Assembly: GCF_026151205.1 (NCBI RefSeq) | Contig: NC_087075.1 | Coordinates: 13,593,628 to 13,653,627, forward strand | Direction of reading: 5' to 3' | Origin: Bolinopsis microptera | Taxonomy: Eukaryota; Ctenophora; Tentaculata; Lobata; Bolinopsidae | DNA: 60,000 bases | Shown: piece after piece, positions 30,101 through 57,100 of the stretch | How positions within the stretch are numbered: the stretch's first letter is position 1 | How the letters are laid out: every line of letters begins with the position of its first letter | The notes under the pieces: generated by a model | What the model saw: the letters and a program-made list of their open reading frames with translations, nothing else | What the model was told of the DNA's origin: nothing | The model's database searches: none | Program-made: the position numbers and the translations under genes

Positions 30101-33100
30101 ATTATTATCAGTATCATGCTGTTCCACCATCAAGAAAGACACTCGTAGGTCTTAATTCCACGCAAACCACGGGTGGCTGACTACTAGCCCTTCTGAGATC
30201 CAGGGCCAACTGAAGGGCCGTCATCACTCATCAAAGAGCTGCGAGAATAACACTACTGCATATGCCTGGAGTTGCATCCTGACTATAATACTATGGTGCG
30301 TGGAAATCTGTACCGAAAGGACCGTGGCCGTGCCGCAAAAGAAAAGGAATCGGCCCTCGTTCCTAACTTGCTAGGTAATAGCCATGCTGTTGTTGTTGCT
30401 TATTAGATTCTGTTACCTTTTTCGTCAATTTCGAATCTTGGTAAACGACCTGCTACAACCCACCGCTTGAGACCCAGGGTCCCACGGTGATCAGATCATG
30501 TCACTCAAGAAAAATCCCCTGAACGAAGTATACGAGATATCATGTAACCTTGCGTAAATACTGAAAGACGAGTGGTCAAATTGCATATTCTAATCCAACA
30601 TGCCAATATGTTTTTTTCATTCCTAGAAAGTACGAGAATAACTAAACAACTGCTGCATTCAGATGGCTACATCTACAGCTCTGTGAAGAAGGACAAGGAA
30701 AAAGCCCCCCCCCCCCCCATTTGGCTGGCGGTGCTGCAACCTGCAATCTCTCAGACAACTACCTCGTTTTGGGTAACAAACCCCGCAACAACGAGGCAGC
30801 TTTCAAAACGAAAACAAGTATTACGTAATCGGCCGAGAGGGAGGGGAGTTTCCAAATGATTAAGCTTGTGTAATTTTGACATAATAGCTATGTGGTGGGG
30901 GGGGGGGGGGGGGCGTAAAAATTGTCCAATAAGTGATTACGTAATATATGAACGGCCACTAAGAAGTAAAGAAAGGGAGCTGCGAAGAGAGTAGATGCAG
31001 CTATCTGAAATCTGAATCCAGCAGTTGTATAGTTCTTCTTGGACGTTCTAGGAATCGGGAAAAGATAGGCATGTTGTTTGCTGTCTCACGACATTACGGT
31101 CGTGTACTAACAGCTGATAAACTCACCTACCTATCAATCCAATTCTGCCCATTATTCGTCAGTCATTGGGTGACGTGATCTGCAGATTACCGTGAGACTC
31201 CAGATCTCAGAAGGGCTAGTAGTCAGCCACCCGTGGTTTGCGTGGAATTAAGACTTACGAGTGTCTTTCTTGATGGTAGAACAACATGATACTGCAGATA
31301 ATTAATGTCGTGGTTCAACTTCCGAGTGGGTCGTTATTGACCCAGTTGATCGATTTTAAAATTTAAATCAACGTACAGGAGTAATGACCAAGATATAACA
31401 TGTTTTATACTAATATTTGTAAAAGTTTGACAACATTATATTTAATTAATCAATTTTGTGGTCTTAGTGGGTCGCTAATGACCCATTTAACCGATTTTTC
31501 GCAGTTTATGATGATTATCACTTGCTGAGAGGCGATTTTGAACTTATGATGTCATGCTTTAGGCTGAATTCAAGAAGTTACATGGACATATGTAGTAATA
31601 AGCAAGTGAGCCGAGTGGGTCGTTAATGACCCAAATTCTTTATTTTTTTAAAGTTAGAGTTACACAGTATTGACCATAAGTTTTTAACTTATGCTTTTTA
31701 TTTTATTTTATCCTAACGTCTTTGTTTCAGAAGTTAAAGCCGAAAAACCGTGATGGGTCGTTTGCGACCCGGACGAGTGGGTCGTATGCGACCATAGCTG
31801 TATCTTTTAAAGTAAACGAGATACAGATTAGCTTTTTTGGATATCTCATTTTTGCTGTAAAGTGACCTAGTGTGTTAAACGGCATCAAAATCGGCAAACT
31901 TTAAAACTCGTCGTCCCTAATGGGTTAATGTAAAACCTGCCAAATTAGGTGGCAGGTGGCAATGGCTGGAAGGGGCCTTAAATGAATGCCTTCGAACGTC
32001 CGATAAGGTATTCAAACAATATCAATAAATTTGAACATCAGTACACAATACCGCACCCCATATTTTTTATATTTTAACCACACATATACCACACCCCTTA
32101 CCTCGTTTGAGTCACCACAGAGGTAACAGCTACAGAGATAACGCCTGTCGACCCCCTTCGTACTCTGCTCCAATGACACAGCAGCTGAACACTTGTCACA
32201 GTATGTGTTACCAGTCTTCTTTCCCGACATTCCTACCTCCATCTGATCCAGCTGGGATTAAAATTTAAAAGTTAATAAAAATAAAAATTTGAAAAAAGAA
32301 GATTTCATGCTATTTCGTGATACTTATATTACGGTAACAGTTGGTTAAACTATCATGGTGTAAATTTTATTTGACCTCCGTAGTTGCGATCTCGACCATT
32401 GAAACAAAGAGTTTGCAGAGGAGAAATACAATGTACATACAATGTATAATGTACAAATGTACAATGTACAAGATACAATGTAAAATGTATCATGATTACA
32501 TACTCATGTATTATTATTTTGTTATTTTGAAATGTTAAGTCAGCATCATGATCGTATAGTCGATGCCCGATGGTATACCCAATGAATACCACGATAGAGG
32601 AGCTATCAATTTCAGACGTATTAAAAGCTATTATAGAAATAGCAGCAAACAACATCATAACTTTGAAAAAAATGACGAAATGTATTTTTAAGAAGATCAT
32701 GATGGCAGATTTATAAATTAAAATTAGAATTCTCAAGCTTTTGACGGAAATAAGTCAGAAACATAAATACAGTATACGTTGTTTCAACAGCAATGCAACT
32801 AACTACTAGTAATTCAAGAGTACTTTAAGCCTTAAGGTGGGAGAATTATTTAAACTAGGTGCTTACACTTTTCACAGACGTTTATAAACATAATTATATA
32901 CAATTATGATTAAAGGAAATAACATAAAGTGTAAGCGCATCTTGGTTTTTTTCTATATGCTTTATATTAAACAATGATAAATAAATATATTGCCTTTTTG
33001 AACTGATTATTCAATTTTAACCTACAAATGAACATTTCAACATTAAAAAGACAAACAAATACCTCATTCAGCTGGGAACAGTTCGGGCATGCAAAGGAGT

Positions 33101-36100
33101 GAAGAACTGATTTTCTGGATATCAGCTCAATAGACAGATTACTGCACAGCGGTCCAAACGTTAATAACATGCTGAAAAATAATAAATAATAATTTAATTT
33201 AATAATATAAATTATTAGTTTACATATATAAATTAAAAGTTAGTTTGATTGTAAAACTTTATTTAATAACGTGCCGATCTATTACAAAAAACAAATTTTT
33301 GATTACCTAGCGAGCCTCAATGATTTACTATATTGAGTTGAACAACTTCTGCAGGTCATGTTAAGCTAGTAACCTAGTAACCTAGTAACCTAGTAACCTA
33401 GTAACCTAGTAACCTAGTAACCTAGTAACTTAGTAACCTAGTAACCTAGTAACCTAGTAGTATTACCTGGCGAGTCTCAATGATTTACTATATTGAGTTG
33501 AACAACTTCTGCAGGTCATGTTAAGCTAGTAACCTAGTAACCCAGTAACCTAGTAACCTAGTAACCTAGTAACCTAGTAACTTAGTAACTTAGTAACCTA
33601 GTAGTAGTAGTATTACCTGGCGAGTCTCAATGATTTACTATATTGAGTTGAACAACTTCTACAGGTCATGTTAAGCTAGTAACCTAGTAACCTAGTAACC
33701 TAGTAACCTAGTAACCTAGTAACCTAGTAACTTAGTAACCTAGTAACCTAGTAACCTAGTAACCTAGTAACCTAGTAACCTAGTAACCTAGTAACCTAGT
33801 AACCTAGTAACCTAGTAACCTAGTAACCTAGTAACCTAGTAACCTAGTAACCTAGTAACCTAGTAACCTAGTAACCTAGTAACTTAGTAACCTAGTAACC
33901 TAGTAGTAGTAGTATTACCTGGCGAGTCTCAATGATTTACTATATTGAGTTGAACAACTTCTACAGGTCATGTTAAGCTAGTAACCTAGTAACCTAGTAA
34001 CCTAGTAGTAGTAGTATTACCTGGCGAGTCTCAATGATTTACTATATTGAGTTGAACAACTTCTACAGGTCATGTTAAGCTAGTAACCTAGTAACCTAGT
34101 AACCTAGTAACCTAGTAACCTAGTAACCTAGTAACTTAGTAACTTAGTAACCTAGTAACCTAGTAACCTAGTAACCTAGTAACCTAGTAACCTAGTAACC
34201 TAGTAACCTAGTAGTAGTAGTATTACCTGGCGAGCCTCAATGATTTACTATATTGAGTTAAACAACTTCTACAGGTCATGTTAAGCTAGTAACCTAGTAA
34301 CCTAGTAACCTAGTAACCTAGTAACCTAGTAACCTAGTAACCTAGTAACCTAGTAACCTAGTAGTAGTAGTATTACCTGGCGAGCCTCAATGATTTACTA
34401 TATTGAGTTGAACAACTTCTACAGGTCATGTTAAGCTAGTAACCTAGTAACCTAGTAACCTAGTAACCTAGTAACCTAGTAACCTAGTAACTTAGTAACT
34501 TAGTAACCTAGTAACCTAGTAACCTAGTAACCTAGTAACCTAGTAACCTAGTAACTTAGTAACCTAGTAACCTAGTAACCTAGTAACCTAGTAACCTAGT
34601 AACCTAGTAACCTAGTAACCTAGTAACCTAGTAACCTAGTAACCTAGTTACCAAGTAACCTAGTAACCTAGTAACCTAATAACCTAGTAACCTAGTAACC
34701 TAGTAACCTAGTAACTTAGTAACCTAGTAACTTAGTAACCTAGTAACCTAGTAACCTAGTAACCTAGTAACTTAGTTACCTAGTAACCTAGTAACCTAGT
34801 AACCTAGTAACCTAGTAACCTAGTAACCTAGTAACCTAGTAACCTAGTAACCTAGTAACCTAGTAACCTAGTAACTTAGTAACCTAGTAACCTAGTAACC
34901 TAGTAACCTAGTAACCTAGTAACCTAGTAACCTAGTAACCTAGTAAGCTAGTAACCTAGTAACCTAGTAACTTAGTAACCTAGTAACCTAGTAACCTAGT
35001 AACTTAGTAACCTAGTAACCTAGTAACCTAGTAACCTAGTAGTAGTAGTATTACCTGGCGAGCCTCAATGATTTACTATATTGAGTTGAACAACTTCTAC
35101 AGGTCATGTTAAGCTAGTAACCTAGTAACCTAGTAACCTAGTAACCTAGTAACCTAGTAACCTAATAACCTAGTAACCTAGTAACCTAGTAACCTAGTAA
35201 CTTAGTAACCTAGTAACCTAGTAACCTAGTAGTAGTAGTATTACCTGGCGAGCCTCAATGATTTACTATATTGAGTTGAACAACTTCTACAGGTCATGTT
35301 AAGCTAGTAACCTAGTAACCTAGTAACTTAGTAACCTAGTAACCTAGTAACCTAGTAACCCAGTAACCTAGTAGTAGTAGTATTACCTGGCGAGTCTCAA
35401 TGATTTACTATATTGAGTTGAACAACTTCTACAGGTCATGTTAAGCTAGTAACCTAGTAACCTAGTAACCTAGTAACCTAGTAACCTAGTAACCTAGTAA
35501 CCTAGTAACCTAGTAACCTAGTAACTTAGTAACCTAGTAACCTAGTAACCTAGTAACCTAGTAGTAGTAGTATTACCTGGCGAGTCTCAATGATTTACTA
35601 TATTGAGTTGAACAACTTCTACAGGTCATGTTAAGCTAGTAACCTAGAAACCTAGTAACTTAGTAACCTAGTAACCTAGTAACCTAGTAACCTAGTAACT
35701 TAGTAACCTAGTAACCTAGTAACCTAGTAACTTAGTAACCTAGTAACCTAGTAACCTAGTAACCTAGTAACCTAGTTACCTAGTAACCTAGTAACCTAGT
35801 AACCTAGTAACCTAGTAACCTAGTAACCTAGTAACTTAGTAACCTAGTAACCTAGTAACTTAGTAACCTAGTAACCTAGTAACCTAGTAACCTAGTAACC
35901 TAGTAACCTAGTAACCTAGTAACCTAGTAGTAGTAGTATTACCTGGCGAGCCTCAATGATTTACTATATTGAGTTGAACAACTTCTACAGGTCATGTTAA
36001 GCTAGTAACCTAGTAACCTAGTAACCTAGTAACCTAGTAACCTAGAAAGCTAGTAACCTAGTAACCTAGTAACCTAGTAACCTAGTAACCTAGTAACCTA

Positions 36101-39100
36101 GTAACCTAGTAACCTAGTAACCTAGTAACCTAGTAACCTAGTAACCTAGTAACCTAGTAACCTAGTAACCTAGTAACCTAGTAACCTAGTAACCTAGTAA
36201 CCTAGTAACCTAGTAACCTAGTAACCTAGTAACCTAGTAATCTAGTAACCTAGTAACCTAGTAATCTAGTAACCTAGTAACCTAGTAACCTAGTAACCTA
36301 GTAACCTAGTAGCCTAGTAACCTAGTAACCTAGTAACCTAGTAACCTAGTAACCTAGTAACCTAGTAACCTAGTAACCTAGTAACCTAGTAACCTAGTAA
36401 CTTAGTAACCTAGTAGTAGTAGTATTACCTGGCGAGCCTCAATGATTTACTGTATTGAGTTGAACAACTTCTACAGGTCATGTTAAGCTAGTAACCTAGT
36501 AACCTAGTAACCTAGTAACCTAGTAACCTAGTAACCTAGTAGTAGTAGTATTACCTAGCGAGCCTCAATGATTTACTATATTGAGTTGAACAACTTCTAC
36601 AGGTCATGTTAAGCTATTAACCTAGTAACCTAGTAACCTAGTAACCTAGTAACCTAGTAACCTAGTAACCTAGTAACCTAGTAACCTAGTAACCTAGTAA
36701 CCTAGTAACTTAGCAACCTAGTAACCTAGTAACCTAGTAACCTAGTAGTAGTAGTATTACCTGGCGAGCCTCAATGATTTACTATATTGAGTTGAACAAC
36801 TTCTACAGGTCATGTTAAGCTAGTAACCTAGTAACCTAGTAACCTAGTAACCTAGTAACCTAGTAAGCTAGTAACCTAGTAACCTAGTAACCTAGTAACC
36901 TAGTAACCTAGTAACCTAGTAACCTAGTAACCTAGTAACCTAGTAACCTAGTAACCTAGTAACCTAGTAACCTAGTAACCTAGTAACCTAGTAACCTAGT
37001 AACCTAGTAACTTAGTAACCTAGTAACCTAGTAACCTAGTAACCTAGTAGTAGTAGTATTACCTGGCGAGCCTCAATGATTTACTATATTGAGTTGAACA
37101 ACTTCTACAGGTCATGTTAAGCTAGTAACCTAGTAACCTAGTAACCTAGTAACCTAGTAACCTAGTAACCTAGTAACCTAGTAACCTAGTAACCTAGTAA
37201 CCTAGTAACCTAGTAACCTAGTAACCTAGTAACCTAGTAGTAGTAGTATTACCTGGCGAGCCTCAATGATTTACTGTATTGAGTTGAACAACTTCTACAG
37301 GTCATGTTAAGCTAGTAACCTAGTAACCTAGTAACCTAGTAACCTAGTAACCTAGTAACCTAGTAACCTAATAACCTAGTAACCTAGTAACCTAGTAACT
37401 TAGTAACCTAGTAACCTAGTAACCTAGTAACCTAGTAACCTAGTAGTAGTAGTATTACCTAGCGAGCCTCAATGATTTACTATATTGAGTTGAACAACTT
37501 CTACAGGTCATGTTAAGCTAGTAACCTAGTAACCTAGTAACCTAGTTACCTAGTAACTTAGTAACCTAGTAACCTAGTAACCTAGTAACCTAGTAACCTA
37601 GTAACCTAGTAACCTAGTAACCTAGTAACCTAGTAACCTAGTAACCTAGTAACCTAGTAACCTAGTAACCTAGTAACCTAGTAACCTAGTAACCTAGTAA
37701 CCTAGTAACCTAGTAACCTAGTAACCTAGTAACCTAGTAACCTAGTAACCTAGTAACCTAGTAACCTAGTAACCTAGTAACCTAGTAACCTAGTAACCTA
37801 GTAACCTAGTAACCTAGTAACCTAGTAACCTAGTAACCTAGTAACCTAGTAACCTAGTAACCTAGTAACTTAGTAACCTAGTAACTTAGTAACCTAGTAA
37901 CCTAGTAACCTAGTAACCTAGTAACCTAGTAACCTAGTAACCTAGTAACCTAGTAACCTAGTAACCTAGTAACCTAGTAACCTAGTACCCTAGTAACCTA
38001 GTAACCTAGTAACCTAGTAACCTAGTAACCTAGTAACCTAGTAACCTAGTAACCTAGTAACCTAGTAACCTAGTAACCTAGTAACCTAGTAACCTAGTAA
38101 CCTAGTAACCTAGTAACCTAGTAACCTAGTAACCTAGTAACCTAGTAACCTAGTAACCTAGTAACCTAGTAACCTAGTAACCTAGTAACCTAGTAACCTA
38201 GTAACCTAGTAACCTAGTAACCTAGTAACCTAGTAACCTAGTAACCTAGTAACCTAGTAACTTAGTAACCTAGTAACCTAGTAACCTAGTAACCTAGTAA
38301 CCTAGTAACCTAGTAACCTAGTAACCTAGTAACCTAGTAACCTAGTAACCTAGTAACCTAGTAACCTAGTAACCTAGTAACCTAGTAACCTAGTAACCTA
38401 GTAACCTAGTAACCTAGTAACCTAGTAACCTAGTAACCTAGTAACCTAGTAACCTAGTAACCTAGTAACCTAGTAACCTAGTAACCTAGTAACCTAGTAA
38501 CCTAGTAACCTAGTAACCTAGTAACCTAGTAACCTAGTAACCTAGTAACCTAGTAACCTAGTAACCTAGTAACCTAGTAACCTAGTAACCTAGTAACCTA
38601 GTAACCTAGTAACCTAGTAACCTAGTAACCTAGTAACCTAGTAACCTAGTAACCTAGTAACCTAGTAACCTAGTAACCTAGTAACCTAGTAACCTAGTAA
38701 CCTAGTAACCTAGTAACCTAGTAACCTAGTAACCTAGTAACCTAGTAACCTAGTAACCTAGTAACCTAGTAACCTAGTAACCTAGTAACCTAGTAACCTA
38801 GTAACTTAATAACCTAGTAACCTAGTAACCTAGTAACCTAGTAACCTAGTAACCTAGTAACCTAGTAACCTAGTAACCTAGTAACCTAGTAACCTAGTAA
38901 CCTAGTAACTTAGTAACCTAGTAACTTAGTAACCTAGTAACCTAGTAACCTAGTAGTAGTAGTATTACCTAGCGAGCCTCAATGATTTACTGTATTGAGT
39001 TGAACAACTTCTACAGGTCATGTTAAGCTAGTAACCTAGTAACCTAGTAACTTAGTAACCTAGTAACCTAGTAACCTAGTAACCTAGTAACCTAGTAACC

Positions 39101-42100
39101 TAGTAACCTAGTAACCTAGTAACCTAGTAACCTAGTAACCTAGTAACCTAGTAACCTAGTAACCTAGTAACCTAGTAACCTAGTAACCTAGTAACCTAGT
39201 AGTAGTAGTATTACCTGGCGAGCCTCAATGATTTACTATATTGAGTTGAACAACTTCTACAGGTCATGTTAAGCTAGTAACCTAGTAACCTAGTAACTTA
39301 GTAACCTAGTAACCTAGTAACTTAGTAACCTAGTAACCTAGTAACTTAGTAACCTAGTAACTTAGTAACCTAGTAACCTAGTAACCTAGTAACCTAGTAA
39401 CCTAGTAACCTAGTAGTAGTAGTATTACCTGGCGAGCCTCAATGATTTACTATATTGAGTTGAACAACTTCTACAGGTCATGTTAAGCTAGTAACCTAGT
39501 AACCTAGTAACCTAGTAACCTAGTAACCTAGTAACCTAGTAACTTAGTAACCTAGTAGTAGTAGTATTACCTGGCGAGCCTCAATGATTTACTATATTGA
39601 GTTGAACAACTTCTACAGGTCATGTTAAGCTAGTAACCTAGTAACCTAGTAACCTAGTAACCTAGTAACCTAGTAACCTAGTAACTTAGTAACTTAGTAA
39701 CCTAGTAACCTAGTAACCTAGTAACCTAGTAACCTAGTAACCTAGTAACCTAGTAACCTAGTAACCTAGTAACCTAGTAACCTAGTAACCTAGTAACCTA
39801 GTAACCTAGTAACCTAGTAACCTAGTAACCTAGTAACCTAGTAACCTAGTAACCTAGTAACCTAGTAACCTAGTAACCTAGTAGTAGTAGTATTACCTGG
39901 CGAGCCTCAATGATTTACTGTATTGAGTTGAACAACTTCTACAGGTCATGTTAAGCTAGTAACCTAGTAACCTAGTAACCTAGTAACCTAGTAACCTAGT
40001 AACCTAGTAACCTAGTAACCTAGTAACCTAGTAACCTAGTAACCTAGTAACCTAGTAACCTAGTAACCTAGTAACCTAGTAACCTAGTAACCTAGTAACC
40101 TAGTAACCTAGTAACCTAGTAACCTAGTAACCTAGTAACCTAGTAACCTAGTAACCTAGTAACCTAGTAACCTAGTAACCTAGTAACCTAGTAACCTAGT
40201 AACCTAGTAGTAGTAGTATTACCTAGCGAGCCTCAATGATTTACTGTATTGAGTTGAACAACTTCTACAGGTCATGTTAAGCTAGTAACCTAGTAACCTA
40301 GTAACCCAGTAACCTAGTAACCTAGTAACCTAGTAACCTAGTAACCTAGTAACCTAGTAACCTAGTAACCTAGTAACCTAGTAACCTAGTAACCTAGTAA
40401 CCTAGTAACCTAGTAAGCTAGTAACCTAGTAACCTAGTAACCTAGTAACCTAGTAAGCTAGTAACCTAGTAACCTAGTTACCTAGTAACCTAGTAACCTA
40501 GTAACCTAGTAACCTAGTAACCTAGTTACCTAGTAAGCTAGTAACCTAGTAACCTAGTAACCTAGTAACCTAGTAACCTAGTAGTAGTAGTATTACCTGG
40601 CGAGCCTCAATGATTTACTATATTGAGTTGAACAACTTCTACAGGTCATGTTAACCTAGTAACCTAGTAACTTAGTAACCTAGTAACCTAGTAACCTAGT
40701 AACCTAGTAACTTAGTAACCTAGTAACCTAGTAACCTAGTAACCTAGTAACCTAGTAACCTAGTAGTAGTAGTATTACCTGGCGAGCCTCAATGATTTAC
40801 TATATTGAGTTGAACAACTTCTACAGGTCATGTTAAGCTAGTAACCTAGTAACCTAGTAACCTAGTAACCTAGTAACCTAGTAACCTAGTTACCTAGTAA
40901 CCTAGTAACCTAGTAACCTAGTAACCTAGTAACCTAGTAACCTAGTAACCTAGTTACCTAGTAACCTAGTAACCTAGTAACCTAGTAACCTAGTAACCTA
41001 GTAACCTAGTAACCTAGTAACCTAGTAACCTAGTTACCTAGTAACCTAGTAACCTAGTAACCTAGTAACTTAGTAACCTAGTAGTAGTAGTATTACCTGG
41101 CGAGTCTCAATGATTTACTGTATTGAGTTGAACAACTTCTACAGGTCATGTTAAGCTAGTAACCTAGTAACCTAGTAACCTAGTAACCTAGTAACCTAGT
41201 AACCTAGTAACCTAGTAACCTAGTAACCTAGTAACCTAGTAACCTAGTAACCTAGTAACCTAGTAACCTAGTAACTTAGTAACCTAGTAACCTAGTAACC
41301 TAGTAACCTAGTAACTTAGTAACCTAGTAACCTAGTAACTTAGTAACCTAGTAACCTAGTAACCTAGTAGTAGTATTACCTGGCGAGCCTCAATGATTTA
41401 CTATATTGAGTTGAACAACTTCTACAGGTCATGTTAAGCTAGTAACCTAGTAACCTAGTAACCTAGTAACCTAGTAACCTAGTAACCTAGTAACCTAGTA
41501 ACCTAGTAACCTAGTAACCTAGTAACCTAGTAACCTAGTAACCTAGTAACCTAGTAACCTAGTAACCTAGTAACCTAGTAACCTAGTAACCTAGTAACCT
41601 AGTAACCAAGTAACCTAGTAACCTAGTAACTTAGTAACCTAGTAACCTAGTAACCTAGTAACCTAGTAACCTAGTAACCTAGTAACCTAGTAACCTAGTA
41701 ACCTAGTAACTTAGTAACCTAGTAACCTAGTAACCTAGTAACCTAGTAACTTAGTAACCTAGTAACCTAGTAACCTAGTAACCTAGTAACCTAGTAAGCT
41801 AGTAACCTAGTAACCTAGTAACCTAGTAACCTAGTAACCTAGTAGTAGTAGTATTACCTGGCGAGCCTCAATGATTTACTATATTGAGTTGAACAACTTC
41901 TACAGGTCATGTTAAGCTAGTAACCTAGTAACCTAGTAACCTAGTAACCTAGTAAACTAGTAACTTAGTAACCTAGTAACTTAGTAACCTAGTAACCTAG
42001 TAACCTAGTAACCTAGTAACCTAGTAACCTAGTAACCTAGTAACCTAGTAACCTAGTAACCTAGTAGTAGTAGTATTACCTAGCTAGCCTCAATGATTTA

Positions 42101-45100
42101 CTATATTGAGTTGAACAACTTCTACAGGTCATGTTAAGCTAGTAACCTAGTAACCTAGTAACCTAGTAAGCTAGTAACCTAGTAACCTAGTAACCTAGTA
42201 ACCTAGTAACCAGTAGCCTAGTAACCTAGTAACCTAGTAACCTAGTAACTTAGTAACCTAGTAACTTAGTAACCTAGTAGTAGTAGTATTACCTGGCGAG
42301 CCTCAATGATTTACTGTATTGAGTTGAACAACTTCTACAGGTCATGTTAAGCTAGTAACCTAGTAACCTAGTAACCTAGTAACCTAGTAACCTAGTAACC
42401 TAGTAACCTAGTAACCTAGTAACCTAGTAACCTAGTAACCTAGTAACCTAGTAACCTAGTAACCTAGTAACCTAGTTACCTAGTAACCTAGTAACCTAGT
42501 AACCTAGTAAGCTAGTAACCTAGTAACCTAGTAAGCTAGTAACCTAGTAACCTAGTAACCTAGTAACCTAGTAACCTAGTTACCTAGTAACCTAGTAACC
42601 TAGTAACCTAGTTACCTAGTAACCTAGTAACTTAGTAACCTAGTAGTAGTAGTATTACCTGGCGAGTCTCAATGATTTACTATATTGAGTTGAACAACTT
42701 CTACAGGTCATGTTAAGCTAGTAACCTAGTAACCTAGTAACCTAGTAACCTAGTAACCTAGTAACCTAGTAACCTAGTAACCTAGTAACCTAGTAACCTA
42801 GTAACCTAGTAACCTAGTTACCTAGTAACCTAGTAACCTAGTAACCTAGTAACCTAGTAACCTAGTAACCTAGTAACCTAGTAACCTAGTAACCTAGTAA
42901 CCTAGTAACCTAGTAACCTAGTAACCTAGTTACCTAGTAACCTAGTAACCTAGTAAGCTAGTAACCTAGTAACCTAGTAACCTAGTAACCTAGTAACCTA
43001 GTAACCTAGTAACCTAGTAACCTAGTAAGCTAGTAACCTAGTAACCTAGTTACCTAGTAACCTAGTTACCTAGTAACCTAGTAACCTAGTAACCTAGTAA
43101 CCTAGTAACCTAGTAACCTAGTAACCTAGTAACCTAGTAACCTAGTAACCTAGTAACCTAGTAACCTAGTAACCTAGTAACCTAGTAACCTAGTAACCTA
43201 GTAACCTAGTAACCTAGTTACCTAGTTACCTAGTAACCTAGTTACCTAGTAACCTAGTAACCTAGTAACCTAGTAACCTAGTAACCTAGTAACCTAGTAA
43301 CCTAGTAACCTAGTAACCTAGTAACCTAGTAACCTAGTAACCTATTAACCTAGTAACCTAGTAACCTAGTAACCTAGTAACCTAGTAACCTAGTAACCTA
43401 GTAACCTAGTAACCTAGTAACCTAGTAACCTAGTAACCTAGTAACCTAGTAACCTAGTAAGCTAGTAACCTAGTAACCTAGTAACCTAGTAACCTAGTAA
43501 CCTAGTAACCTAGTAACCTAGTAACCTAGTAACCTAGTAACCTAGTAACCTAGTAACCTAGTAACCTAGTAACCTAGTAACCTAGTAACCTAGTTACCTA
43601 GTAACCTAGTAACCTAGTAACCTAGTTACCTAGTAACCTAGTAACTTAGTAACTTAGTAACCTAGTAGTAGTAGTATTACCTGGCGAGCCTCAATGATTT
43701 ACTGTATTGAGTTGAACAACTTCTACAGGTCATGTTAAGCTAGTAACCTAGTAACCTAGTAACCTAGTAACCTAGTAACCTAGTAACCTAGTAACCTAGT
43801 AACCTAGTAACCTAGTAACCTAGTAACCTAGTAACCTAGTAACCTAGTAACCTAGTAACCTAGTAACCTAGTAACCTAGTAACCTAGTAACCTAGTAAGC
43901 TAGTAACCTAGTAACCTAGTTACCTAGTAACCTAGTTACCTAGTAACCTAGTAACCTAGTAACCTAGTAACCTAGTAACCTAGTAACCTAGTAACCTAGT
44001 AACCTAGTAACCTAGTAACCTAGTAACCTATTAACCTAGTAACCTAGTAACCTAGTAACCTAGTAACCTAGTAACCTAGTAACCTAGTAACCTAGTAACC
44101 TAGTAACCTAGTAACCTAGTAACCTAGTAACCTAGTAACCTAGTAACCTAGTAACCTAGTAACCTAGTAACCTAGTAACCTAGTAACCTAGTAACCTAGT
44201 AACCTAGTAACCTAGTAACCTAGTAACCTAGTAACCTAGTAACCTAGTAAGCTAGTAACCTAGTAACCTAGTTACCTAGTAACCTAGTAACCTAGTAACC
44301 TAGTAACCTAGTAACCTAGTTACCTAGTAACCTAGTAACCTAGTAACCTAGTAAGCTAGTAACCTAGTAACCTAGTAACCTAGTAACCTAGTAACCTAGT
44401 AAGCTAGTAACCTAGTAACCTAGTAACCTAGTAACCTAGTAACCTAGTAACCTAGTAACCTAGTAACCTAGTAAGCTAGTAACCTAGTAACCTAGTTACC
44501 TAGTAACCTAGTTACCTAGTAACCTAGTAACCTAGTAACCTAGTAACCTAGTAACCTAGTAACCTAGTAACCTAGTAACCTAGTAACCTAGTAACCTAGT
44601 AACCTATTAACCTAGTAACCTAGTAACCTAGTAACCTAGTAACCTAGTAACCTAGTAACCTAGTAACCTAGTAACCTAGTAACCTAGTAACCTAGTAACC
44701 TAGTAAGCTAGTAACCTAGTAACCTAGTAACCTAGTAACCTAGTAACCTAGTAACCTAGTAACCTAGTAACCTAGTAACCTAGTAACCTAGTAACCTAGT
44801 AACCTAGTAACCTAGTAACCTAGTTACCTAGTAACCTAGTAACCTAGTAACCTAGTTACCTAGTAACCTAGTAACTTAGTAACTTAGTAACCTAGTAGTA
44901 GTAGTATTACCTGGCGAGCCTCAATGATTTACTGTATTGAGTTGAACAACTTCTACAGGTCATGTTAAGCTAGTAACCTAGTAACCTAGTAACCTAGTAA
45001 CCTAGTAACCTAGTAACCTAGTAACCTAGTAACCTAGTAACTTAGTAACCTAGTAACCTAGTAACCTAGTAACCTAGTAACCTAGTAACCTAGTAACCTA

Positions 45101-48100
45101 GTAACCTAGTAACTTAGTAACCTAGTAACCTAGTAACCTAGTAACCTAGTAACCTAGTAACCTAGTAACCTAGTAACCTAGTAACCTAGTAGTAGTAGTA
45201 TTACCTGGCGAGCCTCAATGATTTACTGTATTGAGTTGAACAACTTCTACAGGTCATGTTAACCTAGTAACCTAGTAACCTAGTAACCTAGTAACCTAGT
45301 AACCTAGTAACCTAGTAACCTAGTAACCTAGTAATTTAGTAACCTAGTAACCTAGTAACCTAGTAACCTAGTAACCTAGTAACCAGTAGCCTAGTAACCT
45401 AGTAACCTAGTAACCTAGTAACCTAGTAACCTAGTAACCTAGTAACCTAGTAACTTAGTAACCTAGTAACCTAGTAACCTAGTAACCTAGTAACCTAGTA
45501 ACATAGTAGTAGTAGTATTACCTGGCGAGCCTCAATGATTTACTATATTGAGTTGAACAACTTCTACAGGTCATGTTAAGCTAGTAACCTAGTAACCTAG
45601 TAACCTAGTAAGCTAGTAACCTAGTAACCTAGTAACCTAGTAACCTAGTAACTTAGTAACCTAGTAACTTAGTAACCTAGTAACCTAGTAACCTAGTAAC
45701 CTAGTAACCTAGTAACCTAGTAACCTAGTAACCTAGTAACCTAGTAGCCTAGTAACCTAGTAACCTAGTAACCTAGTAACCTAGTAACCTAGTAACCTAG
45801 TAACCTAGTAACTTAGTAACCTAGTAACTTAGTAACCTAGTAACTTAGTAACCTAGTAACCTAGTAACCTAGTAACCTAGTAACCTAATAACCTAGTAAC
45901 TTAGTAACCTAGTAACTTAGTAACCTAGTAGAAGTAGTATTACCTGGCGAGCCTCAATGATTTACTATATTGAGTTGAACAACTTCTACAGGTCATGTTA
46001 AGCTAGTAACCTAGTAACCTAGTAACCTAGTAACCTAGTAACCTAGTAACCTAGTAACCTAGTAACCTAGTAACCTAGTAACCTAGTAGTAGTAGTATTA
46101 CCTGGCGAGTCTCAATGATTTACTATATTGAGTTGAACAACTTCTACAGGTCATGTTAAGCTAGTAACCTAGTAACCTAGTAACCTAGTAACCTAGTAAC
46201 CTAGTAACCTAGTAACCTAGTAACCTAGTAACCAGTAGCCTAGTAACCTAGTAACCTAGTAACCTAGTAACCTAGTAACCTAGTAACCTAGTAACCTAGT
46301 AACCTAGTAACCTAGTAGTAGTAGTAGTATTACCTGGCGAGCCTCAATGATTTACTGTATTGAGTTGAACAACTTCTACAGGTCATGTTAAGCTAGTAAC
46401 CTAGTAACCTAGTAACCTAGTAACCTAGTAACCTAGTAACCTAGTAACCTAGTAACCTAGTAACCTAGTAACCTAGTAACCTAGTAGTAGTAGTATTACC
46501 TGGCGAGCCTCAATGATTTACTATATTGAGTTGAACAACTTCTACAGGTCATGTTAAGCTAGTAACCTAGTAACCTAGTAACCTAGTAACCTAGTAACCT
46601 AGTAACCTAGTAACCTAGTAACCTAGTAACCTAGTAACCTAGTAACCTAGTAGTAGTAGTATTACCTGGCGAGCCTCAATGATTTACTATATTGAGTTGA
46701 ACAACTTCTACAGGTCATGTTAAGCTAGTAACCTAGTAACCTAGTAACCTAGTAACCTAGTAACCTAGTAACCTAGTAACCTAGTAACCTAGTAACCTAG
46801 TAACCTAGTAGTAGTAGTATTACCTGGCGAGCCTCAATGATTTACTATATTGAGTTGAACAACTTCTACAGGTCATGTTAAGCTAGTAACCTAGTAACCT
46901 AGTAACCTAGTAAGCTAGTAACCTAGTAACCTAGTAACCTAGTAACCTAGTAACTTAGTAACCTAGTAACTTAGTAACCTAGTAACCTAGTAACCTAGTA
47001 ACCTAGTAACCTAGTAACCTAGTAACCTAGTAACCTAGTAACCTAGTAACCTAGTAACCTAGTAACCTAGTAACCTAGTAACCTAGTAACCTAGTAACCT
47101 AGTAACCTAGTAACCTAGTAACCTAGTAACCTAGTAACCTAGTAACCTAGTAACCTAGTAACTTAGTAACCTAGTAGTAGTAGTATTACCTGGCGAGTCT
47201 CAATGATTTACTATATTGAGTTGAACAACTTCTACAGGTCATGTTAAGCTAGTAACCTAGTAACCTAGTAACCTAGTAACCTAGTAACTTAGTAACCTAG
47301 TAACCTAGTAACCTAGTAACCTAGTAACCTATTAACCTAGTAACCTAGTAACCTAGTAACCTAGTAACCTAGTAACCTAGTAACCTAGTAACTTAGTAAC
47401 CTAGTAGTAGTAGTATTACCTGGCGAGTCTCAATGATTTACTATATTGAGTTGAACAACTTCTACAGGTCATGTTAAGCTAGTAACCTAGTAACCTAGTA
47501 ACCTAGTAACCTAGTAACTTAGTAACCTAGTAACCTAGTAACCTAGTAACCTAGTAACCTAGTAACCTAGTAACCTAGTAGTAGTAGTATTACCTAGCGA
47601 GCCTCAATGATTTACTATATTGAGTTGAACAACTTCTACAGGTCATGTTAACCTAGTAACCTAGTAACCTAGTAACCTAGTAACCTAGTAACCTAGTAAC
47701 CTAGTAACCTAGTAACCTAGTAACCTAGTAACCTAGTAACCTAGTAACCTAGTAACCTAATAACCTAGTAACCTAGTAACCTAGTAACTTAGTAACCTAG
47801 TAACCTAGTAACCTAGTAACCTAGTAACCTAGTAACCTAGTAACCTAGTAACCTAGTAACCTAGTAACCTAGTAACCTAGTAACCTAGTAACCTAGTAAC
47901 CTAGTAACCTAGTAACTTAGTAACCTAGTAACTTAGTAACCTAGTAACCTAGTAACCTAGTAACCTAGTAACCTAGTAACCTAGTAACCTAGTAACCTAG
48001 TAACCTAGTAACCTAGTAACCTAGTAACCTAGTAACCTAGTAACCTAGTAACCTAGTAACTTAGTAACCTAGTAGTAGTAGTATTACCTGGCGAGTCTCA

Positions 48101-51100
48101 ATGATTTACTATATTGAGTTGAACAACTTCTACAGGTCATGTTAAGCTAGTAACCTAGTAACCTAGTAACCTAGTAACCTAGTAACTTAGTAACCTAGTA
48201 ACCTAGTAACCTAGTAACCTAGTAACCTATTAACCTAGTAACCTAGTAACCTAGTAACCTAGTAACCTAGTAACCTAGTAACCTAGTAACTTAGTAACCT
48301 AGTAGTAGTAGTATTACCTGGCGAGTCTCAATGATTTACTATATTGAGTTGAACAACTTCTACAGGTCATGTTAAGCTAGTAACCTAGTAACCTAGTAAC
48401 CTAGTAACCTAGTAACTTAGTAACCTAGTAACCTAGTAACCTAGTAACCTAGTAACCTAGTAACCTAGTAACCTAGTAGTAGTAGTATTACCTAGCGAGC
48501 CTCAATGATTTACTATATTGAGTTGAACAACTTCTACAGGTCATGTTAACCTAGTAACCTAGTAACCTAGTAACCTAGTAACCTAGTAACCTAGTAACCT
48601 AGTAACCTAGTAACCTAGTAACCTAGTAACCTAGTAACCTAGTAACCTAGTAACCTAGTAACCTAGTAACCTAGTAACCTAGTAACCTAGTAACTTAGTA
48701 ACCTAGTAACCTAGTAACCTAGTAACCTAGTAACATAGTAACTTAATAACCTAGTAACCTAGTAACCTAGTAACCTAGTAACCTAGTAACCTAGTAACCT
48801 AGTAACCTAGTAACCTAGTAACCTAGTAACTTAGTAACCTAGTAACCTAGTAACTTAGTAACCTAGTAACCTAGTAACCTAGTAACTTAGTAACCTAGTA
48901 ACCTAGTAACTTAGTAACCTAGTAACCTAGTAACCTAGTAACCTAGTAACTTAGTAACTTAGTAACCTTGTAACCTAGTAGTATTACCTGGCGAGCCTCA
49001 ATGATTTACTGTATTGAGTTGAACAACTTCTACAGGTCATGTTAAGCTAGTAACCTAGTAACCTAGTAACCTAGTAAGCTAGTAACCTAGTAACCTAGTA
49101 ACCTAGTAACCTAGTAACCTAGTAGTAGTAGTATTACCTGGCGAGCCTCAATGATTTACTATATTGAGTTGAACAACTTCTACAGGTCGTGTTAAGCTAG
49201 TAACCTAGTAACTTAGTAACCTAGTAACCTAGTAACCTAGTAACCTAGTAACCTAGTAACCTAGTAACCTAGTAGTAGTAGTATTACCTGGCGAGTCTCA
49301 ATGATTTACTGTATTGAGTTGAACAACTTCTACAGGTCATGTTAAGCTAGTAACCTAGTAACCTAGTAACCTAGTAACCTAGTAACCTAGTAACCTAGTA
49401 ACCTAGTAACCTAGTAACCTAGTAACCTAGTAACCTAGTAACCTAGTAACCTAGTAACCTAGTAACCTAGTAACCTAGTAACCTAGTAACCTAGTAACCT
49501 AGTAACCTAGTAACCTAGTAACCTAGTAACCTAGTAACCTAGTAACCTAGTAACCTAGTAACCTAGTAACCTAGTAACCTAGTAACCTAGTAACCTAGTA
49601 ACCTAGTAACCTAGTAACCTAGTAACCTAGTAACCTAGTAACCTAGTAACCTAGTAACCTAGTAACCTAGTAACCTAGTAACCTAGTAACCTAGTAACCT
49701 AGTAACCTAGTAACCTAGTAACCTAGTAACCTAGTAACCTAGTAACCTAGTAACCTAGTAACCTAGTAACCTAGTAACCTAGTAACCTAGTAACCTAGTA
49801 ACCTAGTAAACTAGTAACCTAGTAACCTAGTAACCTAGTAACCTAGTAACCTAGTAACCTAGTAACCTAGTAACCTAGTAACCTAGTAACCTAGTAACCT
49901 AGTAACCTTGTAACCTAGTAGTATTACCTGGCGAGCCTCAATGATTTACTGTATTGAGTTGAACAACTTCTACAGGTCATGTTAAGCTAGTAACCTAGTA
50001 ACCTAGTAACCTAGTAAGCTAGTAACCTAGTAACCTAGTAACCTAGTAACCTAGTAACCTAGTAGTAGTAGTATTACCTGGCGAGCCTCAATGATTTACT
50101 ATATTGAGTTGAACAACTTCTACAGGTCGTGTTAAGCTAGTAACCTAGTAACTTAGTAACCTAGTAACCTAGTAACCTAGTAACCTAGTAACCTAGTAAC
50201 CTAGTAACCTAGTAGTAGTAGTATTACCTGGCGAGTCTCAATGATTTACTGTATTGAGTTGAACAACTTCTACAGGTCATGTTAAGCTAGTAACCTAGTA
50301 ACCTAGTAACCTAGTAACCTAGTAACCTAGTAACCTAGTAACCTAGTAACCTAGTAACCTAGTAACCTAGTAACCTAGTAACCTAGTAACCTAGTAACCT
50401 AGTAACCTAGTAACCTAGTAACCTAGTAACCTAGTAACCTAGTAACCTAGTAACCTAGTAACCTAGTAACCTAGTAACCTAGTAACCTAGTAACCTAGTA
50501 ACCTAGTAACCTAGTAACCTAGTAACCTAGTAACCTAGTAACCTAGTAACCTAGTAACCTAGTAACCTAGTAACCTAGTAACCTAGTAACCTAGTAACCT
50601 AGTAACCTAGTAACCTAGTAACCTAGTAACCTAGTAACCTAGTAACCTAGTTACCTAGTAACCTAGTAACCTAGTAACCTAGTAACCTAGTAACCTAGTA
50701 ACCTAGTAACCTAGTAACCTAGTAACCTAGTAACCTAGTAAACTAGTAACCTAGTAACCTAGTAACCTAGTAACCTAGTAACCTAGTAACCTAGTAACCT
50801 AGTAACCTAGTAACCTAGTAACCTAGTAACCTAGTAACCTAGTAACCTAGTAACCTAGTAACCTAGTAACTTAGTAACCTAGTAACCTAGTAGTAGTAGT
50901 ATTACCTGGCGAGCCTCACTGATTTACAATATTGAGTTGAACAACTTCTACAGGTCATGTTAAGCTAGTAACCTAGTAACCTAGTAACCTAGTAACCTAG
51001 TAACCTAGTAACTTAGTAACCTAGTAACCTAGTAACCTAGTAACCTAGTAACCTAGTAACCTAGTAACTTAGTAACCTAGTAATCTAGTAACCTAGTAAC

Positions 51101-54100
51101 CTAGTAACCTAGTAACCTAGTAACCTAGTAACCTAGTAACCTAGTAACTTAGTAACCTAGTAACCTAGTAACCTAGTAACCTAGTAACCTAGTAACCTAG
51201 TAACCTAGTAACCTAGTAACCTAGTAACCTAGTAACCTAGTAACCTAGTAACCTAGTAACCTAGTAACTTAGTAACCTAGTAGTAGTAGTATTACCTGGC
51301 GAGTCTCAATGATTTACAATATTGAGTTGAACAACTTCTACAGGTCATGTTAAGCTAGTAACCTAGTAACCTAGTAACCTAGTAACCTAGTAACCTAGTA
51401 ACCTAGTAACCTAGTAACCTAGTAACCTAGTAACCTAGTAACCTAGTAACCTAGTAACCTAGTAACCTAGTAACCTAGTAACCTAGTAACCTAGTAACCT
51501 AGTAACCTAGTAACCTAGTAACCTAGTAACCTAGTAACCTAGTAACCTAGTAACCTAGTAACCTAGTAACCTAGTAACCTAGTAGTAGTAGTATTACCTG
51601 GCGAGTCTCAATGATTTACTGTATTGAGTTGAACTACTTCTACAGGTCATGTTAAGCTAGTAACCTAGTAACCTAGTAACCTAGTAACCTAGTAACCTAG
51701 TAACCTAGTAACCTAGTAACCTAGTAGTAGTAGTATTACCTGGCGAGTCTCAATGATTTACTGTATTGAGTTGAACAACTTCTACAGGTCATGTTAAGCT
51801 AGTAACCTAGTAACCTAGTAACCTAGTAACCTAGTAACCTAGTAACCTAGTAACCTAGTAACCTAGTAACCTAGTAACCTAGTAACTTAGTAACCTAGTA
51901 ACCTAGTAACCTAGTAACCTAGTAGTATTACCTGGCGAGTCTCGATGATTTACTGTATTGAGTTGAACAACTTCTACAGGTCATGTTAAGCTGTGTCATC
52001 TTCAGTAGGTCCGTTTTGTAATCCAAAGTGTTAACTTCATGACACCTGGAAAGATGGAGAATCTAAGTAAACTATAGGTAAAAATATAATATTAATCATA
52101 AGCTAAAATGTACTAATCTTTGTATTCTAAATGGGGAAAAAGAGGAAACATTGTCAGTCAGTCGAGAAAATTGTCAGTCAGGCTATATGGCAGCTTTGTA
52201 GATGTTGTGACTATGCTAGTAGTGGTCCCAGGCTTGCGACTGGAATTGCGGTGTTAAATCGATTTAATGGTACCAACGATCCACCTCCCACTTGTTGTTT
52301 GGTACTTAGCATTAATAGTGTTAGCTGTAGCCATTTATAGCAAGAATCTTAAAACTAAAGGGGATGACAAGGAAAAGAGGAAGGAAAAAGAATAACGGGA
52401 CAAACAATTAATTAAAGTATTTATAGGAGCATTAGATATTGTAATTACAAGCTTCAATAATAAATCACTGACTAAAACTTCTAATTAAAATGACACTTGG
52501 TACGCTCGCCCATTTTCACTGGTCAGTCTGAACTTCGGTTTAGCACGTTGTACACTTATTCACCTAAGTTTCAGAATTTGTTCAGTTTAGCAGAGTTAGT
52601 ACCCGTGTTTCAATAAATCAAAAGATATCAGGGGAGTTCTTTAATAATGTTACGGTCATCTAGAATACCGAACTTCCTGAAAACGTTATCATATTTCCTC
52701 AGACAACGTTTAATGCCTTTAATCAGTCTATCACGGCTATATCCTCTATCAATTAGAATTTTGAATATTTTGTGAAGATGGGAGGTAAAGATATCCAATC
52801 TAGTGCAAACATTACCATATCTAAGAACTTGACTTGAAAAAACGTTGTAGCCAACCTCGGTTGGGATGTTACTGTGAGGAAATGTAAGGGATACAACATG
52901 AAAATTAAAATCATCAGTTTTGTTATACACTGATATTTCTAGTCCTTCTGTGGAAATATTAATATTTAAATCAAGGTAGTTAATGATTTTATTATTGGAA
53001 CCAGCTCGCTCCATCTCCAATGAATTAGGATAAATATCTTTAATCAATTTATGAAAGTAAAGGTAGTTAATAATAGATAAATCGTCAACATATCGTTTAT
53101 TATTGGATAATATCTTTGCTAATCCCATTTTCTTTTCCTGAAGTAAACGTTTCATATAATTAAATTCCTTTTTGCCAACAGTGAGATCAGCTATAGGGGA
53201 ACTTGAATTTCCACCCATAGGAATACCCTTGGTTTGTATGAATACAATCCCACCGAAGACGACATAAGTGTTATAAATAATAAATTTAACAGCCTCTTTT
53301 AGGTCATCTTGACTAAAGCAGGCATGACAATCATATGTTTTATTGGAAAAGAAGCATGTATTACTGTCTCTTTTAGAAATACAAATATATCTATTACGGT
53401 CTGAAAATATTAAATCAACAACTTCATTAATCATATCCTCTACTTCAATCAAGTCTAATCTGGTATAAAGAGTAGTAAAATCATATACTTGTATATTATA
53501 AACATCGCTATTTTTGATAGCTTCAAGGAATTCACTTGAGGAATCTATGCTCCAAAACATGTTTATACCGCTGTTGTTGTAGATTGCCTCGCAGTATTTC
53601 TTGAAGTATTTCATCAAAAGTTTTAGACAACAGTTAACTTGGACGTTAAGTTGTTTCGTAACGCAAAAACGGGCACCTGCAATGAACCTCGCCTTGTAAG
53701 GGTTCTTGTGAAGCTTAGGGTTCCAGAAGATGCGTGCTAGTCGCAAGTTTTTATCTTCAACTTGTACATTAAATCTCTCCTTTAGACTCTCAGATATTTT
53801 ATTGACATAATGAGTCTCGTCTTCGCTACAGGGTTTATATGTATCATTACCTATACATTCTAGAGTATTAGGATCAAAACCCATTTCATTGACAAGAGTT
53901 TTTACATAAAACTTTTTACAAATAAATGAAAAATTACCAGAAGCTTTGTCGATACTACAAATAATGTATTTACTTTTCAGCAATTTAAGACTTCTTTTAA
54001 CATCCTCTTTTTCCAGTGTGTTTTCTTTTATTTCAAATGTTTCAGGAAAGTTTTTCTTGTAATATTCAATACGATTGGAAACTATTGATAACACTTTTTC

Positions 54101-57100
54101 CTTCCAATCGCTGAACTTTACTTCTTTTTGACAGTACTTTCTACTTTTTGATTTTATAAATTTATCGACAGCTTCGGTAACTGACATATATATCTCATCT
54201 GGAGATTTAAATGTGGGAATTCTGTATTTACAACCGTAGGAAAGTACTTCCCTTAGTTCAACATTATCAACAATATCTAAATTACCAGTAACTACATGTC
54301 CATGAGGAGGATAATTGAAAGGGGAGGAGTGACAATCGCATGGACTACCTAAAATAGATTTAATATCAGAAATAGAAAGTTTCTTTAAGAATGAAGCATA
54401 GTTACAAATAGAAAGACTTATAGGATCATTATACTCATAATAAATCTGTAATGGTGTAAAAGACTGAATCAAAATGGGAAGCAAATCAATGACTGAAGTG
54501 TCAGAGAAAATAGATTTTAGGTTAAGATTATCAATGAATTTGCAATTAAATGGAACAATTATAAATTCTCTATTACTGGATTCAGATTTGTTCTGATGGT
54601 ATTTGGGGGAAAAAAGTTAGTCTTCCGGTAACACAGGAGGATGGTACATATTGGGTGAGTTGAAAATAATGTGTGGATTGTAAAAAATTATTAACATTTT
54701 TATGAAAGAGTAAATGTATTAGGACAATTTATGTTTTTATTTTGGCAATGATGATATTCATAATTTATAACCTGTAAGTGTAATACTATTCTGTATATAT
54801 CTAATTTCAACAAAAAAAGTTAGGAAACAAATTTGCGGAATGTGTCACAAAATAAAAATCTTAAAAACTCACAGTGGACAGGTAGTAAGAAGATATCGAG
54901 CTGTAAAAGCTGATATATCAACGTGATTGTCGGTGGCACAGGTTCCACAGGATTGAACCACCAAGTTATCCTCGTCCGGAAGCAGACTTCTTGATTTCAC
55001 CACGGAGTAGGTAGCACATGTTCCGCATTTTATTTGGACGTATTCTGTTAGGCTTACCTCACCTGATGGTTACTGAGTGTTACTGTAGGTTGCTAGCTTA
55101 CTTAGGGTTTGCAACCGATATTATCGGCGATAGAATTATCGGCGATAATTTGTGAAAAATTCATTATCGGTTATCGGCGATAATTTCTAACCGATAAACC
55201 GATAATATCAATATTTTTTTCTTCAAAAATTATTTCCAAAAAGTTCGAAATTCCGTAAAATCATCGATCAAATTTAGTGTTATTGGACCTCTACAGCTAA
55301 CTAGCTAATTCTCACCGCCTACTTTAAATCTTGATAATATAGTAAACTGTATTAGCATGGATATTTATTAACCGAATTTTCTACTAAAATCAGTGTCATC
55401 CTCTCATTGTTAAATCAAAATATGTTAAGTTATTCACATTCCATTGTCATGTCTTATTGCTTATTTGTCCTGCACTTGATGATCAATCATTTTAACAGCA
55501 TATGTTTCACAATGGCCAATTCCTCCCATAAGTATCCCAAACTCCAAAGTCTCGCCCCCCCCCCCCCCCCCCCCCCCCATTATATATAAGTTGTTCTAGC
55601 TATGTATTCGTGTGGTGCGATGATAATAAGTGATCTCTACGTCGGTTGATCAGATGCTATACTTAAATTGAAATTTCTCCCTATTAAAGTCATCTGATAC
55701 ATTTTATGACTGATGACGTCATAATTAGTTTCAAAACAACACACGCTCCACGCCCCGCGTTTATATTTGATTGCTCATTTGCTTAAATTGTTAATTGATA
55801 ACGTGCTTGGTTGTTCCCTGTCGTGTCCTGTGAAAACTGTTTTATTTGATATGGCAACCAACGAGATCTGAAAACATTTCAAAAAAGAGGGGGACAACGT
55901 GACCTGCATACATTGTGAGAAGTCTTTCCAAGGTACAACTGCCAAGATAAAAGGTCTTACACTAGTTTGTGGTATCACTTGCGGGTAAAGCACGCTATTG
56001 AAAATACAGCCACTAAAAGTACTACTTGTACTTGTACTGCTAACTCGTCCACATCCCCCCAGGCCAAACCACCAAAAAGTAAACCCCTGATCGTACCGTA
56101 CATAGAAAAGAAGACTCAAGCTGAAATGTTTAGTCGTCTAGCAAATGCTTTGTAAATAAATTTACGATGCCGTTCTGGAATTTCAAATTACGTGTTTAGA
56201 ATTCGTGTAACAGTACCTCAGGACTTCCGTAATACTAATCCTCGTACGCAAAGGTGACGAAAGTGTAATTGATTATGTCAGTCAATTATAGTCATACAAA
56301 TTAACAGAAACTTAGCTCATTGTTATGACCCAATTTTATCGCCGATAATTATCGTTATCGCCGATAATTTCAAAATTGTTATCGGTTATCCGTTATCGGC
56401 GATAAAAATTATTGGACCGATAATGCAAACCCTAAGCTTACTGTGTGCTACTGTGGGTTACCTAAGTTACTAGCATGTAGGTTACTGGGATACTGCGGAT
56501 TACTGTGGGTAACTAGGATACTGGGGGGTTGCTAGGTTACTGTGGTTAATTAGGTTACTAAGTAACTGCGGGTAACTAGGATACTGTGGGGTTGCTAGGT
56601 TACTGTGGTTAATTAGGTTACTAAGTAACTGTGGATAACTAGGATACTGCGGGGTTGCTAGGTTACTGTGGTTAATTAGGTTACTAAGTAACTGTGGGTA
56701 ACTAGGATACTACGGGGTTGCTAGGTTACTGTGGTTAATTAGGTTACTAAGTAACTGTGGGGTTGCTAGGTCATTGTGATTAATTAGGTTACTAAGTAAC
56801 TGTGGATAACTAGGATACTGCGGGGTTGCTAGGTTACTGTGGTTAATTAGGTTACTAAGTAACTGCGGGTAACTAGGATACTGTGGGGTTGCTAGGTTAC
56901 TGTGGTTAATTAGGTTACTAAGTAACTGTGGATAACTAGGATACTGCGGGGTTGCTAGGTTACTGTGGTTAATTAGGTTACTAAGTAACTGTGGGTAACT
57001 AGGATACTACGGGGTTGCTAGGTTACTGTGGTTAATTAGGTTACTAAGTAACTGTGGGGTTGCTAGGTTACTGTGGTTAATTAGGTTACTAAGTAACTGT

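Follow-up and report, generated by a model that had tools for sequence, protein, structure and literature searches.

A giant mirage-type intronic satellite in the ctenophore Bolinopsis microptera that probably began as an insertion of a dispersed octamer array

How can an 18.6-kb satellite be built from the end of the coding exon that it adjoins? This question is raised by a 60,000-nucleotide (nt) stretch of the Bolinopsis microptera genome (NC_087075.1, positions 13,593,628 to 13,653,627; hereafter the window), in which the minus-strand exon 51932-52045 has the end CTCGCCAG|GTAATA, after which come GGTTACTA octamers within an intron of 18,760 nt (33172-51931). The original prediction held that this intron carries 58 copies of the exon's last 59 nt, each with the same donor, set among the octamers. 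A scan with the 64-nt unit formed by those 59 nt plus GTAAT (H), allowing up to 16 mismatches, recovered just that: 59 copies on the minus strand, one being the exon end (51990) and the other 58 lying in the intron array. Each array copy agrees with the end of the exon at 54-58 of the 59 positions (mean 56.2), and AG followed by GTAAT is present in 59/59 copies. Between them lie 58 spacers of 43-1451 nt (median 167), 50 of which leave a remainder of 3 when their length is divided by 8, the value required if each holds whole octamers and a constant 3 nt besides. Perfect copies of GGTTACTA number 1,576 within 18,566 nt, a stricter two-motif expression returned 55 unit starts, and Tandem Repeats Finder reported a single array at 33362-51924. 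Our answer to the question is a giant intronic satellite of the mirage type, with the insertion of an octamer array as its probable beginning. The parts of the gene on which the argument draws are as follows.

54873-55062, minus strand: upstream coding exon with an uncertain 5' limit, ending ...TGTCCACT|GTGAGT; the frame is open, and the following exon completes a CPLC knuckle
51932-52045, minus strand: source exon of 114 nt, phase 2-2, with an acceptor of 13.5 bits and a donor of 7.0 bits
33302-51931, minus strand: array of 58 H copies in GGTTACTA octamers, detected by the unit scan and Tandem Repeats Finder
33302-33365, minus strand: right-hand terminal H copy, passing directly into non-repeat intron, the end expected from insertion with duplication
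33172-33301, minus strand: ordinary remainder of the intron (R), with the acceptor TTATTATTTTTCAG at its end
33063-33171, minus strand: next coding exon
32103-32251, minus strand: following coding exon

The exon 51932-52045 is credible as predicted from its frame and from a zinc knuckle. The frame stays open across the exon ending at 54873, 51932-52045 and 33063-33171 (...TTCPLCHEVN...TCRSCS...LASMLLTF...); a CPLC zinc knuckle is rebuilt over the 5' junction of 51932-52045, and CRSC lies inside it. The exon is predicted to join 33063-33171 in phase 2, in agreement with the claim that the flanking exons splice in phase 2-2. Donors and acceptors were scored with weight matrices, and Pfam gave only sub-threshold matches on the window gene, the best being IBR_1 at 0.0045. 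An array-free paralogue of the gene was sought and rejected, as the 60 matches listed all fell at two regions of contig C4. When the exon was used as a query against the genome, at least 75 matches were scored, of which one was full length (the exon itself) and 74 started at query position 54. The first part of the exon, which had been said never to appear in the array, does not recur among these matches. Among the matches listed, the 59-nt half of the unit was found only in the window and beside a copy of the same gene, and so does not appear to be a dispersed repeat unconnected with this gene.

Boundary satellites of this kind have a precedent, contrary to the statement in the original prediction that no such class had been described. 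In amphioxus, tandem repeats spanning exon-intron boundaries have been named mirages, after work on Adh3; they lie at both 5' and 3' boundaries, apparently without interference with splicing, and their mechanism is described as unclear (PMC3087553). A second study adds PGBD5 to the mirage genes and mentions troponin C (PMC3902484). Judged by its sequence, the window array fits the anatomical definition of a mirage, in that every unit spans the exon-intron boundary and the tandem copies adjoin the authentic exon within its own gene. What is new here is the octamer half of the unit, which is a dispersed repeat; the class of boundary satellites is already known.

To place the octamers in their genomic setting, we searched 264.65 Mb in 232 contigs, among which C1-C4, C6, C7, C9, C11 and C13 are each 16.3-26.2 Mb long. 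A glutamate-receptor open reading frame at locus L078 has its best PDB match in ML032222a, a receptor of Mnemiopsis leidyi (E 2.8e-122), in keeping with a lobate ctenophore. Four tandem octamers, (GGTTACTA)4, gave 1,962 overlapping matches, with 1,008 in the window, 406 in a second copy of the region (described below) and 548 elsewhere. The prediction that an exon-intron boundary was amplified inside its own gene therefore stands for the 59-nt half of the unit, which comes from the exon boundary, but is incomplete, as the octamer half is dispersed. As a sample of octamer loci we took every distinct place among the matches listed, together with places found by boundary-pattern searches, leaving out the second copy as a duplicate of the window and the smaller of two clusters at locus L028. 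The sample comprised 43 stretches with an octamer cluster, including the window, on the contigs named above. For each, the 130 nt to the left of the octamers were aligned with the 130 nt to the right, and a score of at least 15 was taken as a pass; 1806 mismatched cross-locus pairs served as controls. This flank test was passed by 19/43 octamer arrays versus 1/1806 controls. The single passing control paired L015 with L026, which are paralogous, and the next-highest control score was 14.6. The passing loci were the window, L009, L012, L013, L016, L026, L028, L029, L032, L033, L038, L039, L042, L044, L048, L052, L053, L054 and L057. At these loci the order is L-H-octamers-H-R, with a local H of 15-87 nt duplicated. 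The distance between H and the octamers is at most 6 nt on either side at 16 of these loci; the three others have a wider gap on one side, of 9 nt at L028, 14 nt at L026 and 29 nt at L029. Duplication of H could also be seen by eye, below the threshold, at L014 (14.5), L043 (11.5; a paralogue of L044) and L036 (9.0).

The window array begins with H and ends in the same manner. Its terminal unit runs into GTAATCAAAAATTTG and not into octamers, so that H is followed by R as at the other loci. Such an end is expected from insertion with duplication, whereas tandem duplication of H plus octamers alone would not leave it. From this shared ending, the likeliest start of the array is an insertion of octamers by which the exon-donor boundary was duplicated. 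In the first step, as the array ends suggest, a staggered break across the boundary between exon 51932-52045 and its intron would have taken up a run of GGTTACTA, and the 64 nt between the break ends would have been copied twice to give exon-H-octamers-H-intron. We infer that this was a repair event, during which the octamer filler may have been copied or captured from an existing array. Since the donor is part of H, a working donor could persist in the outermost copy, the insert would fall within the intron and the coding sequence would be left unharmed. The array probably serves no function itself and would be carried because splicing removes it. This first step also appears to have occurred at many other loci of the genome, by reading often at splice junctions, and the octamer runs found elsewhere between duplicated local pieces suggest how boundary repeats start. 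The window locus is no isolated case but the largest one observed in a wider pattern.

A plainer history would have the exon-donor boundary duplicated in tandem first and the octamers arising later at H/H junctions, with no insertion at all. The first bases after H in the window, GTAATACTACTA, do resemble a slippage product, and the genome also holds an octamer-free boundary repeat with a 3' splice site, seen by eye at L028 (C1:777-780 kb). The amphioxus mirages are described at both 5' and 3' boundaries, and the accessible text makes no mention of an octamer core (PMC3087553). However, one octamer lies between differing H at many loci, and independent slippage would not yield one octamer everywhere. 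We consider this history unlikely.

Direct repeats adjoin the insert at 19/43 loci, as a transposable element with target-site duplication would require. One could therefore suppose a mobile element with an octamer-array body and long target-site duplications, moved for example by the reverse transcriptase of a retroelement. In line with such an element, dispersed octamers with adjoining direct repeats occur at unlinked loci, the left-hand octamer starts are concentrated in three of the eight phases, and near-identical retroelement-like copies are abundant, one of them 14 nt from the source exon. Two fixed ends would also be expected, but the right-hand octamer ends include all 8 phases (16 usable). 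Additionally, H varies from 15 to 87 nt across the 19 loci, with no characteristic length of duplication, and no shared non-octamer body could be seen by eye in the inserts. A mobile element thus seems improbable, more so than the tandem-first history.

A short repeat of fixed unit at break-like sites could also be of telomeric type, added by telomerase at breaks in the manner of interstitial telomeric sequences. As a control, TTAGGG is abundant in this genome (4,273 overlapping matches), yet an adjoining duplication was present at 0/17 TTAGGG arrays among the places listed, all on C1; several of these arrays share flanks, so they represent fewer than 17 independent sites. Three TTAGGG arrays did score 15.0-15.5, but the aligned pieces lay 69-80 nt from the array and were no better than the cross-locus controls. 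Neither octamers nor TTAGGG were found in the outermost 200 bases of 8 contig ends, indicating that telomeres are not assembled there. A telomeric origin of the octamer thus found no support in these contig ends or TTAGGG arrays, and we regard addition by telomerase as scarcely credible.

Several observations weigh against an origin of the array by insertion. The flank test was failed by 24/43 octamer arrays. Among those that passed, the left flank of L029 lies inside its own array, where the fetched stretch ends, and the 24-nt H of L042 is partly octamer-like. The left-hand octamer starts are less spread than the right-hand ends, falling in 5 phases with 11/13 usable starts in phases 0, 3 and 4. 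Junction microhomology gave a mixed picture. It was counted at 17 of the 19 loci, excluding L029 and L042 as well as the sub-threshold L014, L036 and L043 and the second array of L028; at least 2 nt were shared at 9/34 junctions (about 6 expected) and at least 3 nt at 6/34 (about 1.9 expected), while filler was present at 15/34. We therefore rejected strong junction microhomology as a signature, and the counts indicate no single repair route. Lastly, neither an empty site nor a source of the octamers turned up in the one genome searched.

How could a single insertion have reached 58 units? A second array is informative here. Seventeen further unit copies lie at C4:16,119,922-16,126,438 on the other strand, followed by intron tail, next exon and intron start that are 98.2% identical to those of the window over 1,050 aligned bases. 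This region at C4:16.12 Mb is an inverted, rearranged copy of the window region. Further pieces match at 75-100% identity, the longest being two of 1,599 (91.9%) and 1,046 (97.6%) aligned bases, and the two regions share a CUB/sushi-like gene that matches at 90-91%. The two copies of the region, which may or may not be alleles, carry 58 and 17 units. Subunit variants at positions 1, 8, 36, 51 and 57 are common to both arrays, so the array probably either is older than the duplication of the region or has been exchanged since. Both arrays also contain higher-order duplications, with spacers of 91, 91, 581 and then 91, 91, 611 in the window and of 411, 251, 88, 987 and then 419, 243, 88, 1027 in the second array. 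These multi-unit repeats support a second step, in which unequal exchange or slippage would have multiplied the unit of H plus octamers to 58 in the window and 17 in the second copy.

Upstream of the second array the source exon was not found, a 45-nt array and a noisy array of about 34 nt being present there instead. The latter occupies positions 1-4900 of L005 (C4:16112001-16116900) as about 5 kb of noisy homopolymer-rich repeat with a period of about 34 nt that resembles GGGTTACTAGGGGGTTACCTGCCTCCTCTTACTA, and it looks like a poor consensus of another satellite. Nor was the 5' part of the gene found at the second copy. Both features would suit an assembly artefact, in which a satellite was collapsed or mis-joined. 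In contrast, the array in the window is clean and varies between copies by ordinary substitutions, and the same anatomy is present at loci with unique flanks. An artefact is accordingly very improbable as the source of this structure, although the count of copies may not be exact.

We also asked where H lies with respect to genes at the other loci. At 13/19 loci (the window, L013, L016, L026, L028, L029, L032, L042, L044, L052, L053, L054 and L057), H was read as spanning or touching an exon-intron boundary, the one at L013 lying just beyond the aligned end of H; those at L016, L028, L032, L053 and L054 were read as acceptors. The boundary has protein support at five of these loci, from the knuckle in the window and from Pfam matches near or in H at L044 (Helicase_C, 1.3e-7, the only match above a curated cut-off), L028 (AA_permease_2, 3.6e-6), L042 (Biotin_carb_C, 7.3e-5) and, weakly, L013 (Acyltransferase, 0.019). 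Additionally, one of the local top three donor-like sites falls inside H at 11/19 loci, whereas randomly placed H would give 4.3 on average (P 0.0008).

These figures are offset by others. Matches at 0.05 or better were obtained for 7/20 scanned peptides, and 13/20 had no Pfam match. Just 5/11 of the top-three donors are at the boundary read (window, L029, L039, L042 and L052), whereas the other six lie on the wrong strand, within the exon or at the opposite edge, or have no assignment; five alone would be no excess. We therefore do not take an enrichment of donors in H to prove targeting. Acceptor-like sites in H are not enriched either, at 5/19 versus 4.0 expected. Moreover, because insertions within exons would be purged, an excess at boundaries can be judged only against an annotated, length-matched control. 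The broader proposal, that a dispersed ctenophore octamer satellite has been captured repeatedly at splice junctions, with the boundary duplicated and the insert always spliced out, is accordingly one that we hold as possible but rather doubtful, having lowered it from a tentative standing once a recheck weakened the donor test.

Two of these loci show features of their own. L028 (C1:777200-780900) holds, as seen by eye, a single amino-acid-permease-like gene with octamer arrays at the 3' end of an intron and at a donor, and its octamer-free tandem repeat includes the 3' splice site CTCCCCCAG|GACTGACA. In the second array of L028 (C1:777 kb), about 88 nt of transporter exon with GTGAGTT are repeated, the last copy passing into GTGAGTTGTTTAC (by eye). 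At L009 (C2:11121400-11123200), the flanks on either side of the octamer array lie in open frames of both strands. Either the C-terminus has been disrupted there or a new intron may have formed, the latter too weakly supported to claim.

The neighbourhood of the source exon contains two further repeats.

52060-54613, minus strand (that of the gene): retroelement-like repeat overlapping a 662-amino-acid open reading frame (52628-54616)
56502-57356, plus strand (opposite to the gene): degenerate octamer-like array, its higher unit 63 nt long, within an upstream intron of the window gene

The first has at least 31 other full-length copies at 99-100% identity among the matches listed, and, judging from its motifs, may encode a reverse transcriptase. 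It ends about 14 nt upstream of the 3' splice site of the source exon, so the original branch point may have been displaced, and the intron before the source exon must take its branch point inside or beside this repeat. The octamer-like array at 56502-57356 is presumed older from its degeneracy. Beside it, an insert at 55090-56390 has the ends 'GGGTTTGCA...TGCAAACCC' and is flanked by AGTAAGCT; by its motifs it is perhaps of hAT type. At 20104-20562 (and in L007), a 39-nt unit is repeated 11.8 times at 100% identity, also in the second copy of the region. This unit appears to equal the last coding bases plus the stop TAA of the apparent final exon of the window gene, which would mean that a second boundary of the gene has also been amplified. 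Elsewhere in the window, three similar tandem open reading frames (389-1132, 7318-8010 and 11515-12216) are CUB/sushi-like, as named by eye, and have relatives in the inverted copy at C4:16.14 Mb.

How does the window array compare with known systems? Like the amphioxus mirages of Adh3, globin, troponin C and PGBD5, it is a boundary minisatellite beside its own exon with AG/GT in many units. Unlike them, it reaches 58 units over 18.6 kb, compared with the 6 and 3 given for two BflGb6 haplotypes, and half of its unit belongs to an octamer satellite dispersed over other loci of a ctenophore genome. A literature search that covered few subscription papers found no report of boundary arrays in ctenophores.

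The minisatellite of human IFI6 (6-16), reportedly described by Turri et al. in 1995, is said to lie at an exon end and to supply several splice donors. The window minisatellite is similarly placed and carries many donors. In IFI6 the downstream donors are reportedly used in mRNA, and the unit is said to be much shorter and to have no shared filler; the 58 donors of the window are predicted from sequence.

A parallel for the proposed first step comes from mammalian cells, in which small tandem duplications at staggered breaks are filled in by CST-Pol alpha-primase (PMC8355091). The scale is similar, with tens of bases between nicks and overhangs down to 43 bp there and H of 15-87 nt here. The duplications in that account are plain tandem ones, whereas a satellite array separates the copies here. 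In human segmental duplications, internal tandem repeats at exon-intron boundaries have been proposed to create new introns; those repeats average four 30-bp units, and the accessible text does not mention a shared octamer filler (PMC2812944). The boundary minisatellites of amphioxus have likewise been proposed as a source of new introns.

What the ctenophore genome adds is many cases in one genome, with flanking copies still nearly identical and with a shared filler, so that the seeding event can be reconstructed and should be testable in living animals. The 58 decoy donors with the AG|GTAAT core of the real donor, all within one intron, also provide a natural test of splice-site choice. If the proposed history is true, there would be a satellite-seeded route to mirage arrays, to intron growth and perhaps to new introns, and it would supply an origin for the boundary minisatellites whose origin is called unclear in the amphioxus study (PMC3087553).

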